A DNA stretch of 43,069 nucleotides from an uncultured Methylococcaceae bacterium (GTDB lineage Bacteria > Pseudomonadota > Gammaproteobacteria > Methylococcales > Methylococcaceae): positions 1 to 43,069 of the forward strand of contig CAIOOA010000006.1 in assembly GCA_903859815.1 (NCBI GenBank). Reading direction: 5' to 3'. How positions within the stretch are numbered: position 1 is the stretch's first letter; every line of letters starts with the position of its first letter. The translations under genes and the position numbers were made by a program. This document shows, piece by piece, positions 52-6,852 of this stretch. A model generated the notes under the pieces. The model saw only the letters and a list, made by a program, of their open reading frames with translations, ran no database searches and had not been told where the DNA came from.

Positions 52-142
52 GCCTAACCCACTATTCGACCGGACGCGGGGTTAAGCTTTGGCTCATTTT
101 TCAACCTTCGTCCGCCCGCGCCGGTCAATGCGGGCGTTAGGT
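52..142 (+). repeat. attC recombination site 1 (divergent)
   Basis: Starts GCCTAAC and ends GTTAGGT, with complementary inner arms around CCGGACGCGG and CGCCGGTCAATGCGGGC. Its interior differs from the later near-identical attC sites, so this cassette probably joined the array from a different source. The 51 bases before it are the tail of a truncated upstream cassette and include the AAGAGCAAAAT linker seen before other attC sites. Confidence 0.8.
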
Positions 143-552: not shown

Positions 553-668
553 GCCTAACAAGGCACTCCAGCCGGCCGCGCCTTTTTTGTGTCTTTCAAG
601 TTCCGTTTTATGTTCAGCGGTTCCGGTTTCGCGGCGGGCACGTCTGCTAAGGGCCGTAGCCGTTAGGC
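553..668 (+). repeat. attC recombination site 2 (long, divergent)
   Basis: GCCTAAC at 553 and GTTAGGC ending at 668 bound a 116-bp site, longer than the 91-96 bp sites that follow, with a different interior. Toward its 3' end it contains AAGGGCCGTAGCC, a string that elsewhere in the array occurs upstream of attC (for example near 1566 and 4403). It may therefore be a recombinant site. Confidence 0.75.
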
Positions 669-1559: not shown

Positions 1560-1593
1560 GCCAAGTAGGGCCGTAGCCAGCGTAACGCGGTAA

Positions 1594-1624
1594 GGCGCAA
1601 TAGCGGTACTCCGCGTATTGCGCC
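1594..1624. repeat. Cassette 3'-end hairpin (GCGCAAT family)
   Basis: Arms GGCGCAATAGCGG and CCGCGTATTGCGCC form a long imperfect stem 57 bases before attC 3. Closely related hairpins occupy the same place in neighbouring cassettes. There is no T-tract after the stem, so it is not a classical terminator. It resembles REP-like intergenic hairpins. Confidence 0.8.
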
Positions 1625-1680
1625 GAATGGATAAAAAGAGCAAAATCCATGAATGACCGGCATTGTTTCGCTACCCACCC

Positions 1681-1771
1681 GCCTAACCCGCCGTTCCAGC
1701 CGACCCGCGTGGAAGTTTGGCGTGTTCAGTCTGGCTCCTTCCGCGCGGGCGGCTGAACGGGGTCGTTAGGC
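1681..1771 (+). repeat. attC recombination site 3
   Basis: GCCTAAC (1681-1687) pairs with GTTAGGC (1765-1771). The inner arms CCGTTCCAGCCGACCCGCG and CGCGCGGGCGGCTGAACGG are complementary, with a short variable loop between them. It is almost identical to sites 4, 6 and 7. Confidence 0.92.
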
Positions 1772-1811
1772 GTGGGAGGCTCCCCGGACGTAACCGTATA
1801 AGAGCAAAAAA

Positions 1812-2369
1812 ATGAAGATGAAATTATTGGCAAATTTGGCAATTGGGGCGTTGATACTTGGAATATCGGGTCCGGTAAGTGCGACTCCTTTCCAATGGAC
1901 AGTCGCAGGTGGTGGAAACGGTCATTGGTATGAGTTTGTGTCTTCTATTGTTACTTGGGATACCGCTAACGCAAATGCGCAGGCTTCAACATACAATGGC
2001 ATGCCCGGACACCTCGCTACCATTACCAGTGCAGAGGAAAATGACTGGGTCTTTAGTAATGTTGGCCTAGCCGGAATCAGTATTTGGCTTGGTGCTACAG
2101 ACCAGTCACATGAAGGAACCTGGACATGGGTAACAGACGAAACATGGAACTATACAAATTGGGATAATTTATATGGAGAGCCAAATGGTGGTGTCGGGGC
2201 TAATTATCTTGCTTTTAATTGGAATATTGCATCTCGCTGGAACGATGAAAGCGGATCAGCTAGGTATATTGTAGAGTATCAAACGGCTTCTGTTCCAGAA
2301 CCTGCTACCATGCTCCTTCTAGGCACAGGCTTAGCCTGTCTCGTAGGAACACGAAGAAAGAAAAAATAG
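1812..2369 (+). CDS. PEP-CTERM C-type lectin-like protein (cassette gene)
   Basis: Encodes 185 residues: an N-terminal signal peptide (residues 1-24, cut after VSA), a C-type lectin fold and a C-terminal PEP-CTERM sorting signal. The lectin part shows GHLATITSAEEN (66-77), WLGATDQ, WTWVTDE and YTNW. It has both calcium/sugar motifs: EPN (123-125), the mannose-type version, and WND (143-145). The tail is VPEPA (161-165), a hydrophobic helix, then RRKKK. PEP-CTERM proteins are cut and anchored by an exosortase and are tied to exopolysaccharide or biofilm matrix. No exosortase gene is in the window, so one must be encoded elsewhere for this cassette to work. Start: ATG at 1812 after an AAGAG ribosome-binding site. 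Family call is confident; the sugar ligand is inferred. Confidence 0.9.
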   Translation: MKMKLLANLAIGALILGISGPVSATPFQWTVAGGGNGHWYEFVSSIVTWDTANANAQASTYNGMPGHLATITSAEENDWVFSNVGLAGISIWLGATDQSHEGTWTWVTDETWNYTNWDNLYGEPNGGVGANYLAFNWNIASRWNDESGSARYIVEYQTASVPEPATMLLLGTGLACLVGTRRKKK

Positions 2370-2412
2370 GATAATCGGGGTCACATACGAATTAAATGTT
2401 ATAGGGCCGTAG

Positions 2413-2444
2413 GGCGCAATAGCGGTTCCGCCGCATATCGCGCC
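2413..2444. repeat. Cassette 3'-end hairpin (GCGCAAT family)
   Basis: GGCGCAATAGCGG pairs with CCGCATATCGCGCC, 56 bases before attC 4 and preceded by AGGGCCGTA. Same position and sequence family as the hairpin at 1594. Confidence 0.78.
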
Positions 2445-2499
2445 GAATGTAAAAAAGTGCAAGATCCATGAAAATCCGGCATTGTCTTTTTATCCACGC

Positions 2500-2590
2500 G
2501 CCTAACCCGCCGTTCCAGCCGACCCGCGTGGACGTTTGGCTTTATTTTTCTGGCTCCTTCCGCGCGGGCGGCTGAACGGGGTCGTTAGGC
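2500..2590 (+). repeat. attC recombination site 4
   Basis: GCCTAAC (2500-2506) to GTTAGGC (2584-2590), 91 bp, with the same inner arms as site 3. Its last bases (TTAGG) also lie where a ribosome-binding site is needed for the gene starting at 2596. Confidence 0.92.
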
Positions 2591-2595
2591 AACCT

Positions 2596-3549
2596 ATGTA
2601 CTCACTTGATCAGCCACTTACTGGAGACCTTATTCTCTGTAGGTCTCACAATACAAAAAGCAAGAATTTGCTTTGGCAAAGAATATTTCGTCCAAAAATC
2701 GGAGCATCCTATACACATGTTCTACTTATGTGTACCAATACATTTGCTATACACGCAACACCAGTTGGCGGTGTAAGCTTTATAGGTCTTTATGATTTAC
2801 TATGCACATCAGAATACAAAAACTCTTGGAAAATATATAGAAATTTAGAAATTGAAAATTTTACAAAAGAAGATTTTTTATCAGCACATAAAAAAATTAA
2901 CGAAGCATCCATGTATTTTTTTTTACAAAAATACAATTATGCCTTCAATATTCCAGAACCGTGGTACATCACCAAAAGAACACGAAAAAGTTTTTGTTCG
3001 CAATTAATTTCAAGAATTTTTGCTCGAATCAATATTGATCTTGACGTTACAAATAAAAATCCATCTCTTGTTCTGCCAGCAGATATAGAGTTATCAACAA
3101 AAGATCAAAGTAAATGGCGAGAAGTTACTCATATCTATACTTCACGAATAGACGATGCTAATAAATCGAAAGCATTGCTTCTGAGCATAATTAATTCAGA
3201 AATGCAAGATATTGAACTCTATCAAGTCCAATCAAAATTTGATACCACAGTGCAAAATCATCATGCCCGTGAACTAATAGCACTGCAGCAGTTTGAAGAG
3301 ACAGTAAATAAATTAGATCAAATTATTCACTCCGTTAATTCTGCATTCGATCCAAATATACATCCAAGAAAGCCATACAAATTTCCGACAAATCGCGAAG
3401 AATATCTCAGAAACGGCAGCATAAAGAATTGGATAACGCGTGATATTTACAGAAAATATTTGACGGGGAGATATATAAAATCTGCATTAGAAAAATTTCG
3501 TTTTTGGACAAAATGGCTAATTCATCGGTCGAGGGGACGATCATCTTAA
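2596..3549 (+). CDS. YiiX-like permuted NlpC/P60 (papain-fold) protein (cassette gene)
   Basis: Encodes 317 residues. An in-frame TTG lies further upstream (2536), but it is inside attC 4, so the ATG at 2596, just six bases after the attC, is taken as the start. The N-terminal half matches the YiiX/YaeF permuted papain fold: TGDLILCRS (9-17), SYTHVLLM with candidate catalytic His41, an AIHATPVGG turn, then KSFCSQLISRIF with candidate nucleophile Cys134, and LPADIELS. Such proteins are amidases or peptidases acting on cell-wall or lipid-linked substrates. Residues ~200-317 are charged, probably helical, and match nothing I know. The gene is much more AT-rich than the attC modules around it, a sign of foreign origin. 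No signal peptide is seen. Confidence 0.72.
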   Translation: MYSLDQPLTGDLILCRSHNTKSKNLLWQRIFRPKIGASYTHVLLMCTNTFAIHATPVGGVSFIGLYDLLCTSEYKNSWKIYRNLEIENFTKEDFLSAHKKINEASMYFFLQKYNYAFNIPEPWYITKRTRKSFCSQLISRIFARINIDLDVTNKNPSLVLPADIELSTKDQSKWREVTHIYTSRIDDANKSKALLLSIINSEMQDIELYQVQSKFDTTVQNHHARELIALQQFEETVNKLDQIIHSVNSAFDPNIHPRKPYKFPTNREEYLRNGSIKNWITRDIYRKYLTGRYIKSALEKFRFWTKWLIHRSRGRSS

Positions 3550-3561
3550 TCAACGCGGTAA

Positions 3562-3593
3562 GGCGCAATAGCGGCCCCGCCGCGTATTGCGCC
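3562..3593. repeat. Cassette 3'-end hairpin (GCGCAAT family)
   Basis: GGCGCAATAGCGG pairs with CCGCGTATTGCGCC. It begins 13 bases after the preceding stop codon and 57 bases before attC 5. Nearly identical to the copy at 1594. Confidence 0.8.
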
Positions 3594-3649
3594 GAATGGG
3601 AAAAGAGAGCAAAATCCATGAATGCCGGACACTGTATCTCTATCCACCC

Positions 3650-3745
3650 GCCTAACCCGCCGTTCCAGCCGACCCGCGCCCATCGCTTGCCGTGTTGGGT
3701 TCGGGTTCCGCCTTGGGCGCGGGCGGCTGAACGGAGGAGTTAGGC
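3650..3745 (+). repeat. attC recombination site 5
   Basis: GCCTAAC (3650-3656) to GTTAGGC (3739-3745), 96 bp. The outer and inner arms match the other sites, but the loop is longer and distinct (CATCGCTTGCCGTG region). Confidence 0.9.
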
Positions 3746-3806
3746 CCCACTTCATTACATCATCTGTCAACGCGATTTCGCTGAATCAATCAATGAGGAG
3801 ATTAAT

Positions 3807-4403
3807 ATGCCTGTATTGGACATTAGCCGCTTGAATACTTCGATCGGTATATGCGGCGTGGTGAGCACCTTGGCTGCCGTTTATTCAATGCGGCCAGGAG
3901 TGCAACATTCTGTGAACATCCAAACGAGTGAAAGCAGTGATGCCTTGACCTACGTGTACGACATCATCTGCGGCTTCTTGTCCTACCTAGAAGAAAACGG
4001 TGACAAGGAAGTCATTCAGGAGACGGAGGCTATCACGAAGTCCTTCGGAGGTGTCTATTCGAGTTGGACCGTCACGGGGTACCTCACTCGAGGGCGACGC
4101 GAAGAGGACCTCAAGGGTGGGCGCTATGCCATGGCCTTGACTCCGAACGGGATATTGGCGTTGCTAGAGTTCCTAGGCTTGCGAGGTGTCCGGTCTGACA
4201 AGGACGTGCCTGGGGACGCCATCATCGGCTTAACGCGCTCAGGCGCACCAACTAACAATTGGGGAAATCTCGCGCACTGGACCTTTCGATCTTCTGCTGG
4301 CACATGGCTCAATCATGGAGCAAACTATACGTCCCTCTCCGCCTTGAACCAAGCCGCCAGTCGAGATTACTCGGCTATCACTTGGATCAGTGTGCACGGA
4401 TAA
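3807..4403 (+). CDS. Hypothetical cassette protein with Cys/His motifs
   Basis: Encodes 198 residues from ATG 3807, after GAGGAG at 3791-3796, a strong ribosome-binding site. I do not recognise a family. Visible features are Cys16 in SIGICGVVSTL near the N-terminus, an acidic helical stretch (SYLEENGDKEV), and WGNLAHWTF with His157 followed by His170 (WLNHGANYTS). A Cys in a small-residue helix early and a His later is the order used by papain-fold peptidases, so that fold is possible but unproven. No signal peptide is present; the N-terminal hydrophobic patch is short. Codon use is less AT-rich than in the preceding cassette. Confidence 0.7.
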   Translation: MPVLDISRLNTSIGICGVVSTLAAVYSMRPGVQHSVNIQTSESSDALTYVYDIICGFLSYLEENGDKEVIQETEAITKSFGGVYSSWTVTGYLTRGRREEDLKGGRYAMALTPNGILALLEFLGLRGVRSDKDVPGDAIIGLTRSGAPTNNWGNLAHWTFRSSAGTWLNHGANYTSLSALNQAASRDYSAITWISVHG

Positions 4404-4412
4404 GGGCCGTAG

Positions 4413-4444
4413 GGCGCAATCGCGGCTCCGCCTCGTATTGCGCC
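4413..4444. repeat. Cassette 3'-end hairpin (GCGCAAT family)
   Basis: GGCGCAATCGCGG pairs with CCTCGTATTGCGCC, beginning 10 bases after the preceding stop codon and preceded by AAGGGCCGTA as at 2403. Confidence 0.78.
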
Positions 4445-4466
4445 GCATGGGAAAGTTGAAACATTC

Positions 4467-4495
4467 GGCGGAATACGCTAAACCGCTATTCCGCC
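4467..4495. repeat. Second hairpin in the same cassette tail (GCGGAAT type)
   Basis: GGCGGAATACGC pairs with CCGCTATTCCGCC and is followed by CTACC. It is a sister of the GCGCAAT hairpin with compensating base changes in both arms. It makes this cassette tail longer than the others. Confidence 0.78.
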
Positions 4496-4571
4496 CTACC
4501 TGTTTTCAAGATAATTTAACAAGCAAAGAAAAAAAACCCATGAAACCCCGGCCTTATCTCTCTGCCCATCC

Positions 4572-4662
4572 GCCTAACCCGCCGTTCCAGCCGACCCGCG
4601 TGGACGTTTGGCTTCATTGTTCTGGCTCCTTCCGCGCGGGCGGCTGAACGGGGGCGTTAGGC
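4572..4662 (+). repeat. attC recombination site 6
   Basis: GCCTAAC (4572-4578) to GTTAGGC (4656-4662), 91 bp, near-identical to sites 3 and 4. Confidence 0.92.
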
Positions 4663-4701
4663 GTCGCAGGTGGTGTTTTCGTCATCCTGATCTTCTGTCT
4701 G

Positions 4702-5196
4702 GTGACTCTTCTCTGCGTAACTTGCCTATTTTTCATTTGCAATTCAAACTCTAGCGAGGCTACAACCATGGGAATGACACAAGTAGATGCTTGGGATTCA
4801 AGCAGAATACTTGATCCACGCAATCCACGCATCACGGGCTATTCCAGTCGGACCACGATAAATTGGGCGGGGCTCAGATTAAGCAGTAATAATTTTTTCC
4901 AAAAACTGAGACGTATACGGCAAGTAGAGGCATGGCCTGTCTTTGCATGCGCAGAGGTTAACGCGGTACATTTACTAACGCAAGGCAATTCGAAGCTCTC
5001 GAACATTCGAATACAAAAGGCGGTTGATGGTCATCTTTTGAAGCCCCCCTGCAGTAACTGCGATCAATGGCTAGAATTAACTGAGAATCGCATCTACAAG
5101 ATTCGCGATAGTTTTTTGATGACGGATCAAGAAGAAGCCGATAGCCGCACACCTAAACCTGGACCAACAAAAGCTGATTTTCCGCCGTTGTCGTAG
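4702..5196 (+). CDS. Cytidine-deaminase-fold protein, possible toxin-type deaminase (cassette gene)
   Basis: Encodes 164 residues from GTG 4702. It carries the zinc-site signature of the deaminase superfamily: CAEVNAV (Cys83-Ala-Glu85, ligand plus catalytic Glu) and PPCSNCDQW (Cys117 and Cys120 ligands). The first ligand is Cys rather than His, and the protein is short, as in deaminase domains of bacterial polymorphic toxins (YwqJ-like) rather than metabolic cytidine deaminases. The start is uncertain. A hydrophobic stretch covers residues 2-13 and the open frame continues hydrophobic upstream into the attC boundary; ATG 4768 is an alternative that would give a soluble protein. The tail is Pro-rich. 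No immunity gene is seen in the cassette. Deaminase fold is fairly sure; substrate unknown. Confidence 0.68.
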   Translation: MTLLCVTCLFFICNSNSSEATTMGMTQVDAWDSSRILDPRNPRITGYSSRTTINWAGLRLSSNNFFQKLRRIRQVEAWPVFACAEVNAVHLLTQGNSKLSNIRIQKAVDGHLLKPPCSNCDQWLELTENRIYKIRDSFLMTDQEEADSRTPKPGPTKADFPPLS

Positions 5197-5204
5197 CCGG
5201 GTAG

Positions 5205-5232
5205 GTCGGGCAAAGTCTTTTTGTTGCCCGAC
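5205..5232. repeat. Cassette 3'-end hairpin (unrelated stem)
   Basis: GTCGGGCAA pairs perfectly with TTGCCCGAC around a T-rich loop. It sits where the other cassettes carry the GCGCAAT hairpin, 9 bases after the stop codon and before the conserved AAAGAGC linker, but the stem sequence is different. Confidence 0.8.
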
Positions 5233-5287
5233 GAAAAGAGCGAAGAGCAAGAGCCATGAACCCTCGGCCTTGTCTCCCTGCCCACCG

Positions 5288-5381
5288 GCCTAACCCGCCG
5301 TTCCAGCCGACCCAAGTGGTGGACGTTTGGTGTGTTCATTCTGGCTCCTTTCACGCGGGCGGCTGAACGGGGTCGTTAGGC
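5288..5381 (+). repeat. attC recombination site 7
   Basis: GCCTAAC (5288-5294) to GTTAGGC (5375-5381), 94 bp, with the same arms as sites 3, 4 and 6. Confidence 0.92.
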
Positions 5382-5407
5382 CACAACATTTAGAGGAGAA
5401 CGTTTAA

Positions 5408-5947
5408 ATGCCTGGATTTCTCGACGCGACGCTGGGTGGACTCCTAGGTAGTAGTGTCACTACCGCGATCTTGGGAGCCTTGTTTCTCAGGCACAACAAG
5501 ACGATCGAAGCGCAGATTGGCACCAAATTTGGCGAGAATTTAAAAGTTTTTGAATCAACGCGCTCTTGGAAAGAACAAGCCCTGTCGCAATTGCTCGGGC
5601 CGATTCAGATGCAGTTGGAGCGAACAAAGCGCGCATATAACCGTTGGGACAACAGAAATCTTCATTTGGAAGGGAAGGTAATTCGAGAGGGCAACCTCGC
5701 GATCCGTGACCTTCTTCTGTCGAAGGGTCATCTAATCCCTCCGCATCTGATGCAACACGCTGTAAGCCTAGTCGAGCATTATGATTCATGGCTTGAAGCG
5801 TATGATCGTATTCGCGGAGATCCATTGAAAGCGGATGAGGCGGACTTCGTCTTTGTCGGACCCGAGGGATATCCATTTCCAGTAGAGGCCGAAGCAGAAT
5901 TCAAGGCCGAGTTCCGAAAATTGCAGGGGGAACTGTATGGGGTCTAA
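5408..5947 (+). CDS. Membrane-anchored helical protein of unknown function (cassette gene)
   Basis: Encodes 179 residues from ATG 5408, after AGAGGAGA (5392-5399), a strong ribosome-binding site. Residues ~7-27 (LGGLLGSSVTTAILGALFL) form one transmembrane segment, followed by RHNK. The rest is soluble, charged and largely helical, with a possible coiled coil at ~30-90 (KTIEAQIGTKFGENLKVFE onward) and an ordered segment with FVFVGPEGYPFP near 147-160. The positive residues just after the helix suggest the bulk is cytoplasmic. I do not recognise a named family. It is the last full cassette before the array ends. Confidence 0.75.
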   Translation: MPGFLDATLGGLLGSSVTTAILGALFLRHNKTIEAQIGTKFGENLKVFESTRSWKEQALSQLLGPIQMQLERTKRAYNRWDNRNLHLEGKVIREGNLAIRDLLLSKGHLIPPHLMQHAVSLVEHYDSWLEAYDRIRGDPLKADEADFVFVGPEGYPFPVEAEAEFKAEFRKLQGELYGV

Positions 5948-5957
5948 GGCCGTAAGT

Positions 5958-5978
5958 CGGAACCATGGACGGGTTCCG
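5958..5978. repeat. Cassette 3'-end hairpin (unrelated stem)
   Basis: CGGAACC pairs with GGTTCCG around ATGGACG, 11 bases after the stop codon and preceded by AAGGCCGTA. Third stem sequence found at the same structural position. Confidence 0.75.
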
Positions 5979-6044
5979 CCGAATGAAAAACAAGGGTGAA
6001 AGAGCAAAGTCCATGAATACCCGGCTTTGTCTCCCTGCACGCCC

Positions 6045-6125
6045 GCCTAACCCGCCGTTCAAGTCAACCCGCGTGGACGTTTGCCGTTTTCATTCTGGCC
6101 CCTAGGATGAACGGGGTCGTTAAGC
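6045..6125 (+). repeat. attC recombination site 8 (degraded; end of array)
   Basis: GCCTAAC (6045-6051) to GTTAAGC (6119-6125). The right arm is damaged: the CGCGCGGGCGG part is missing and CCCTAGGATGAACGG remains. The core has A instead of G at the second R. No attC or cassette gene follows, so this is the distal end of the array. Confidence 0.82.
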
Positions 6126-6286: not shown

Positions 6287-6454
6287 CGGTCAACTGAATC
6301 ACTTTACTGGCTGAGAATGTTTGTCTGGCGGTCAACTGAATAAGATTACTAGCTTACAATCTTTGTCTGGTGGGCTACTGACTCAGTTTAGCGGCTTACA
6401 AATTTTGTCAGTGTGCTGGAAAAATAAGTTTGGCGGCTTACGATTTCACTTTGC
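6287..6454. repeat. Degenerate 42-bp tandem repeats (possible IS21-family end remnant)
   Basis: About four units at 6287, 6329, 6371 and 6413. The first two share CGGTCAACTGAAT and TTTGTCTGG; later units decay but keep GGCTTAC. Subterminal repeats with a GGTCAA-type core are known from the ends of IS21-family elements. No istA or istB gene is present, so at most a remnant remains. The 71-residue ORF across it is a by-product of the repeats. Repeat structure is seen directly; the IS assignment is tentative. Confidence 0.55.
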
Positions 6455-6728: not shown

Positions 6729-6852
6729 TATAAAGCAAGCTTTGATGCTCCGAACACCAGTCAAAGCAAGCTTTGACGCTCCGAACCCAAGTCAAAGCAA
6801 GCTTTGACGCTCCGAACACCAGTCAAAGCAAGCTTTGACGCTCCAATCCAAT
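6729..6852. repeat. 31-bp palindromic tandem repeats, four copies
   Basis: Units begin at 6729, 6760, 6791 and 6822. Each is a palindrome GTCAAAGC-AA-GCTTTGAC followed by GCTCCGAAC. Unit 1 has lost the leading bases and has T for C once. The array sits just downstream of alr (minus strand), where its hairpins could stop transcription or stabilise the 3' end. There are no unique spacers, so it is not a CRISPR array. Confidence 0.9.

Follow-up and report, generated by a model that had tools for sequence, protein, structure and literature searches.

Homogeneous attC arrays are typical of sedentary chromosomal integrons in Vibrio, Xanthomonas and others. Such integrons (PMC8352920) have an integrase, IntI of family TIGR02249, encoded beside a one-directional array whose attC sites are built of R''/L''/L'/R' boxes and are similar within a taxon. 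The same holds for the system described here, found in a 43,069-nt stretch (the window, bases 1–43069 of contig C6) of an uncultured Methylococcaceae genome (G000; 5.80 Mb in 315 contigs). The first 6.1 kb of the window are one end of an integron cassette array, which is cut at base 1 by the start of the contig. Unlike in the known examples, these cassettes are homologous over a further ~110 nt before attC, which take in a linker and a hairpin resembling repetitive extragenic palindromic (REP) elements. REP elements and REPtrons with TnpA-REP (PMC8266576) involve short dispersed palindromes, often after GTAG or GTAA. The hairpins here share these traits, and the genome also has Y1_Tnp-type genes, one amid many REPs; in contrast to REPtrons, cassette tails here regularly include a REP, and no gene for the main type was identified. 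The model in which cassettes form through group IIC-attC introns (Leon and Roy, 2009, as described in PMC7923331) likewise joins attC to a gene via a shared element behind the gene. Such an intron was not found here, and the shared element would instead be the REP-linker. A literature search limited to open-licence papers recognised no description of a conserved region upstream of attC.

The composite tail consists of a REP-family hairpin (~45–50 nt), a 50-nt linker and an attC, and is common to unrelated open reading frames (ORFs). In many cases its left edge, formed by the REP lead, coincides with the ORF stop codon or lies close to it. Evidence from the genome itself, its relatives, control arrays and the junctions makes a ready-made REP-linker-attC tail, joined to ORFs and to older tails, the best reading and, on balance, a probable one.

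The integron integrase gene lies at G000:C242:7357–8385 and scores 481.6 bits against TIGR02249 (cut-off 265). The cassettes on C242 point away from intI, with attC sites on the minus strand below it, and the nearest relatives of the integrase in named genomes belong to uncultured Methylococcaceae metagenome-assembled genomes (MAGs; 82–89% identity). Two marks of a sedentary chromosomal integron, an integrase gene and an attC array directed away from intI, are present; no attI site could be assigned in the region beside intI. We infer that C6 carries the distal end of the array of this integrase, and the window is best explained as containing the distal end of a sedentary chromosomal integron in an uncultured Methylococcaceae genus.

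Eight attC-like sites were found in the window (Table 1). The last six have the 50-nt linker immediately 5' of R'' and, upstream of it, at least one palindrome each; the second site is without linker. Folded as DNA, the bottom strands of four of five window attC sites beat shuffled sequences. The initial annotation had reported homology between cassettes beyond attC, and this stands, with the linker at six of eight sites and upstream scores far above those of random sets. Its count of five cassettes in seven with the full set of tail motifs is inexact: GGCCGTA occurs within 125 nt of R'' at three of eight sites and CGAATGG at two (CG[AC]ATG at four), tail 4 having an additional GGCCGTA farther upstream, at ~4405.

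The reach of the similarity was measured as mean pairwise local scores of flanking 60-mers. For the six window tails the score was 38.7 directly upstream, 20.8 at -120..-60, 12.3 at -180..-120 and 12.2 downstream, with a random reference of 12.3 ± 0.89 (maximum 18.9; 1000 random window sets). Over 24 modules from the same genome it was 54.2 (-60..0), 26.0 (-120..-60) and 12.2 (-180..-120), compared with 12.3 for random stretches, and again at random level downstream (12.2, 19 modules). Upstream similarity is clear to ~110–120 nt before attC and random beyond, and there is none downstream of R'. It persists in the rest of the array, where its loss had been named as a point that would count against a shared tail.

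As controls we used 118 loci of other taxa, 78 of them around IntI relatives (L193–L270) and 40 chosen by contig position (L321–L360); four were skipped as shorter than 500 nt, and 18 had at least three attC sites. In 16 of these 18 arrays no 60-nt flank pair scored >24 on either side. The other two, L222 and L228, had some high flank pairs on both sides, in L228 in the pattern of duplicated cassettes. Among arrays with at least four detected attC sites, flank homology was present in 10 of 10 from the genus (one-sided in nine, weak on both sides in L272) and in none of six controls. Relative to this control set, which is small and has large Vibrio arrays outside it, the results support the earlier claim that array-wide, one-sided homology beyond attC is unusual. 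Ordinary attC homogenisation, in which conversion or cassette duplication would spread attC with 110 nt of flank and the ORFs would be replaced or decay later, agrees with attC and linker being homogeneous within genomes (attC distance 0.209 within and 0.266 between genomes). Conversion tracts would be expected to have varied ends and to reach downstream, whereas the block ends at R' and near the REP; moreover, the attC sites of control L243 are 93% identical (75% with the sites of another finder) and its flanks are at random level. We regard homogenisation as improbable.

The linker recurs throughout its own genome. BLAST with linker plus attC gave at least 40 places (from the best 40 of 55 candidates), and the linker profile at least 40 matches (from the best 150 of 3398 candidates scored). 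Of 40 linkers inspected, 30 have an R''-type box after them where one is expected; by reading, the other ten comprise three with a one-base variant of the box, three with inserted-looking sequence at R'', one running into another tail, two without an attC start and one at a contig end. A structured attC follows the linker in 24 of 39 cases with sufficient sequence under a strict arm criterion. At its threshold the strict attC finder reported no site in 20 background contigs (245 kb) or in 20 further loci (159 kb) picked for hairpin or linker hits; it overlooks real sites, the second and the last of the window being unreported. At L150 (G000:C167) ~3790–3882, an attC-like sequence of another type runs straight into a TACT hairpin without a linker, the finder being silent at ~3790–3840. 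Elsewhere, at L161 and G000:C274:46564 and at G000:C274:48455 and C255:20995, other shared sequences (GTTACATACAAACAAAAGAACA; GTCATCAACAAYCCATC-like) replace attC after the REP and linker start.

Among relatives, the linker profile matched in seven of seven genus genomes (40, 42, 21, 14, 1, 32 and 28 matches for G000–G006) and in none of 34 genomes outside the genus, such consensus-based counts resting on profiles made from these very sequences. The exact 16-mer core of the linker occurs in nine of 311 genomes of the order: five of the seven congeners, with 8–14 copies each, and, as single copies, four of the 304 others. Among these last, G567, from another family, is the only one with a type-A attC after the linker. 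There, two stacked tails and the type-A attC span L387 (G567:C210) 820–1052, and the tail is either a transferred cassette or part of a mis-binned contig. No linker match was found on plasmids at E 1e-5. In viral contigs, 60 stretches have the exact 16-mer; none of the 60 has a type-A attC profile match at E<1, and they were taken as chance.

In G003 the linker is retained beside another attC type. It matches the consensus at 36 of 50 positions there, and the attC at 51 of 90 (mean pairwise identity 0.63 vs 0.53). This persistence favours some role, and selection on the linker may contribute to what we see. It would suit a history in which the linker, and perhaps the hairpin, has a function in cis that no surviving cassette can do without (such as protecting mRNA ends, controlling how attC folds or binding a host factor), each tail having descended with its cassette and not been joined afresh. 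The within-genome distance of the linker (0.245), close to that of attC, and the three of eight aligned ORF pairs that retain the same tail point the same way. Different hairpins on related ORFs and stacked tails, both described below, would be unexpected under a cis function, no tested control array has such an array-wide region, and neither of two linkers folded is stable (z 0.5 and -0.7); we think this history unlikely. The linker was also considered as the ribosome start of a 35-amino-acid ORF read through attC. An ATG with a frame open for 30–41 codons is present in six of six window tails, and an ATG stands at that place in 70 of 95 modules. By reading, though, third codon positions vary no more than the other two, some copies are frameshifted, and no Pfam family (five window ORFs) or NCBIfam family (four) matched; on these grounds the mini-ORF was rejected as highly improbable.

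The hairpins belong to a family of dispersed palindromes, among whose leads are AACGCGGTAAGGCG and GGGCCGTAGGGCG. A GTAG-like tetranucleotide precedes the palindrome, as GCCGTAGGGCG / GCGGTAAGGCG leads in many copies, with GTAA instead of GTAG in many. Judged by sequence, this form fits REP elements as presented in PMC8266576. The window tails have palindromes of several types, those of tails 1 to 4 including the GCGCAATA type. As RNA, the window palindromes mostly show moderate or no gain over dinucleotide shuffles (z -2.8 to +0.2, with -4.6 for the second palindrome of tail 4). The hairpin model gave at least 99 matches in the genome (from the best 150 of 1427 candidates scored); it and the linker profile (R2 and R1 in Table 1) are sequence-only models, the hairpin consensus structure having yielded no base pair. 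Exact palindromes number 34, against none for a reversed control pattern. By reading, ~15 of them are at tails and ~19 elsewhere, and many hairpins lie on contigs where the strict finder reported no attC. A hairpin exclusive to attC was rejected on account of these dispersed copies. The initial annotation had called the hairpins terminator-like; we found no T tract after the stem, and a scan gave 5 terminator-like sites vs 6.6 expected, which led us to reject intrinsic terminators. Y1_Tnp-type matches number four in the genome, one with an internal stop. On C118, a gene resembling those of REP-associated tyrosine transposases (RAYTs) lies amid several GTAGGTCGGGCAA-type REPs, the type of tail 5, and one GGCGGAA-type palindrome.

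Several counts link the hairpin with the linker. Of the strong linkers, 36 of 38 in the own genome and 54 of 66 in relatives have a REP-type stretch before them; 3 of 1000 random background stretches reach that score. In the own genome the loop motif TACT is present in 14 of 19 linker-associated hairpins vs 1 of 42 others, counting those with an intact right arm at loci chosen partly for their hits. In Mantel tests, hairpin and linker distances are also correlated inside genomes, with a value reached by 4 of 999 within-genome shuffles. Given the loop link and this correlation, the hairpin often arrived with the linker; other hairpins were swapped for other REP types.

Junctions between ORFs and tails locate the left edge. 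The ORF most often stops 40–50 nt before the linker (20 of 93), a position that corresponds to the REP edge. When an ORF with two linkers is counted twice, 15 of 33 ORF-tail cases from the own genome and 16 of 52 from relatives have the stop inside the REP or no more than 6 nt from its edge. Of two related PEP-CTERM cassettes with 54% identity, one takes its final residues and stop from the tail, and at L271 12943 a start codon opens six codons in all before the tail follows. We found 15 pairs of related cassette ORFs (three of them one ORF with two linkers), of which eight were aligned. L061 and L286 (94% amino acid identity) diverge in the last codons, at a REP start in one; the other has >100 nt of different sequence and then its own hairpin. 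L161 and L277 are alike up to the stop, after which they have different hairpins and the same linker. L280 and L288 have the ORF, the REP and the start of an old linker in common; inside that old linker L280 then has a TACT hairpin, a linker and an R'' start, and L288 continues at that point into its own attC type. Stacked tails occur at L050, L276 and L387, where the first R'' breaks off after GCC, GCCTAA and GCCTA, respectively, and a second REP begins at once. For the ORF pairs it is unproven in which direction the change went, and MAG contigs are possibly chimeric at repeats. A ~95-nt sequence whose arms are CAAGAAGCAAATGC...GCATGCTTCTTG occupies one and the same point of the attC R'' box (GCC^TAAC) at L061 ~8172–8076 (minus strand), L062 and L276, with related starts in L162, L272 and L284; it looks like a repeated site-specific insertion.

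The earlier proposal that ready-made tails are attached to ORFs is partly supported, by tails on unrelated ORFs, by three related pairs with different tails and by stacked tails, but attC and linker lack a common fine genealogy, and this and other observations weigh against it. Once genome identity is accounted for, linker and attC distances are uncorrelated (their value is reached by 298 of 999 within-genome shuffles), as are hairpin and attC distances within genomes (218 of 999). The whole block thus has no visible single fine genealogy, with which a star-like history and separate evolution are both compatible. The stop lies >30 nt before the REP for 8 of the 33 ORFs from the own genome and 15 of the 52 from relatives, and there is no REP in 2 of 33 and 10 of 52 cases. 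The new linker in L280 is followed only by the R'' start and another REP, and the move of an entire hairpin-linker-attC block thus went unobserved. Three alignments (L049/L283, L054/L283 and L272/L287) are apparently one cassette keeping its tail in two genomes, and L272/L278 and L272/L282 are too diverged to place a junction; deletions or local rearrangements could be the source of some ORF pairs. The REPs that clearly flank the RAYT-like gene are mainly of the GTCGGGCAA type and not of the main tail type. In relatives the loop motif does not differ between linker-associated (18 of 37) and other hairpins (3 of 7). When hairpins are aligned to two consensus types, the own-genome loop link weakens to 21 of 27 vs 12 of 57, and the relatives give 36 of 51 linker-associated vs 14 of 24 others. 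No pairing selection on the stem is visible, the left arm being variable and the right arm nearly constant; an argument for hybrid REPs from this asymmetry was dropped, as dispersed REPs show the same (68 vs 11 changes). A general targeting of attC R'' by REPs is unsupported too, dispersed REPs next to CCTAA showing no enrichment (3 of 48 vs 2 of 48).

The weak loop link by alignment and in relatives, the several REP types among tails and the ~19 of 34 exact hairpins read as lying off tails would all be natural if the hairpins were independent REP insertions behind ORFs, unrelated to the linker-attC unit. REP elements do lie mostly in intergenic regions, according to PMC8266576. The initial annotation had asked whether the hairpins occur away from attC, and the answer is divided: many exact copies do, yet tail hairpins in the own genome are mostly of their own loop type. 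Independent insertion would leave the linker unexplained and does not fit the own-genome loop counts, the correlation of hairpin and linker distances or the joint appearance of hairpin, linker and R'' start in L280. We consider it doubtful and return to a ready-made REP-linker-attC tail.

Under that reading, a pre-existing REP-linker-attC tail would be joined to the 3' end of an ORF, giving a new or renewed cassette, or to an older, partly lost tail inside its R'' box or linker. IntI would afterwards process the product normally at G^TT of R'. The limits of the block are most likely the REP edge on one side and, on the other, the point in R' where IntI crosses over, and the joining itself, as our guess, most likely happens at the REP edge. 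It might proceed by recombination or microhomology between the tail REP and REPs already behind genes, or by REP/RAYT single-strand chemistry, both of which are guesses. A bolder and more tentative proposal makes the REP hairpins a portable joint, the REP-linker-attC block being moved or recombined onto any ORF that ends near a REP, or onto a decayed tail, in a genus-wide capture of tails perhaps aided by a RAYT-type nuclease.

In such a scheme the REP would take the role of the shared intron in the group IIC-attC model. The introns of that model, proposed earlier as the agents that joined terminators and attC here, are a very improbable source. Group II introns are present in the genome, with five domain-V matches over threshold and one group II reverse transcriptase, but no attC or linker match was found in the stretches around them, and the hairpins lack a terminator signature. 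Class was judged only by the C-terminus of that one reverse transcriptase, which is HNH-like by our own reading with weak family matches only; a single group II intron 3' end that recurs four times, each time at the end of a contig (L010, L011, L012 and L013), is unclassed, with no attC or linker match in 1.6 kb around each copy. Another reverse transcriptase, at L016 (G000:C274:24938–25588) after an FGE-sulfatase-like ORF, looks, again by our own reading, like that of a diversity-generating retroelement.

Table 1. Features of the cassette array in the window, in order of position
Feature	Positions	Strand	Basis
Degenerate linker (AAGAGCAAAATC at 1–12) before first attC; left part lost at contig start	1–51	+	sequence
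attC, different diverged type	52–142	+	boxes GCCTAAC/GTTAGGT, arm score 25
attC-like site, no tail homology	553–668	+	sequence; missed by arm-score finder
REP-like hairpin, TACT loop, tail 1	1580–1631	+	model R2 3.5e-17; exact palindrome 1595–1623
Linker, tail 1	1631–1680	+	linker alignment, R1 profile match
attC, tail 1	1681–1771	+	bottom-strand DNA fold z -4.9
REP-like hairpin, tail 2	2400–2449	+	model R2 1.9e-12
Linker, tail 2	2450–2499	+	linker alignment, R1 profile match
attC, tail 2	2500–2590	+	fold z -4.5
REP-like hairpin, tail 3; ORF stop 3547–3549 abuts	3550–3599	+	model R2 match, exact palindrome
Linker, tail 3	3600–3649	+	linker alignment, R1 profile match
attC, tail 3	3650–3745	+	arm score 38
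REP-like hairpin, dispersed type, tail 4	4398–4450	+	model R2 match, exact palindrome
Second palindrome of tail 4, GGCGGAATA type	4462–4499	.	fold z -4.6; R2 match on minus strand
Linker, tail 4	4522–4571	+	linker alignment, R1 profile match
attC, tail 4	4572–4662	+	fold z -4.8
Palindrome of GTAGGTCGGGCAA...TTGCCCGAC type (GTCGGGCAA type), tail 5	5199–5238	+	fold z -1.7
Linker, tail 5	5238–5287	+	linker alignment, R1 profile match
attC, tail 5	5288–5381	+	fold z -2.5
REP-like palindrome, GGAACC type, tail 6	5941–5987	+	R2 4.2e-4; fold z 0.23, not above shuffles
Linker, tail 6	5995–6044	+	linker alignment, R1 profile match
Last attC of array, damaged arm	6045–6125	+	fold z 1.06, not above shuffles

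Among the cassette genes of the window, the ORF at 1812–2369 encodes a C-type lectin domain and a PEP-CTERM sorting signal. Just past the array end are a 42-nt direct repeat in three diverged copies and a series of 31-nt tandem repeats (6287–6412, 6732–6849), and, as read from the translations, alr and dnaB come after the array.

The origin of integron cassettes is open: attC sites are alike within a taxon, and the ORFs they accompany are unrelated. Because the tail described here is longer than attC, the left edge of the joining event becomes visible, and its junctions can be read in related genomes. Cassette genesis thereby becomes testable in an environmental, methane-eating genus.

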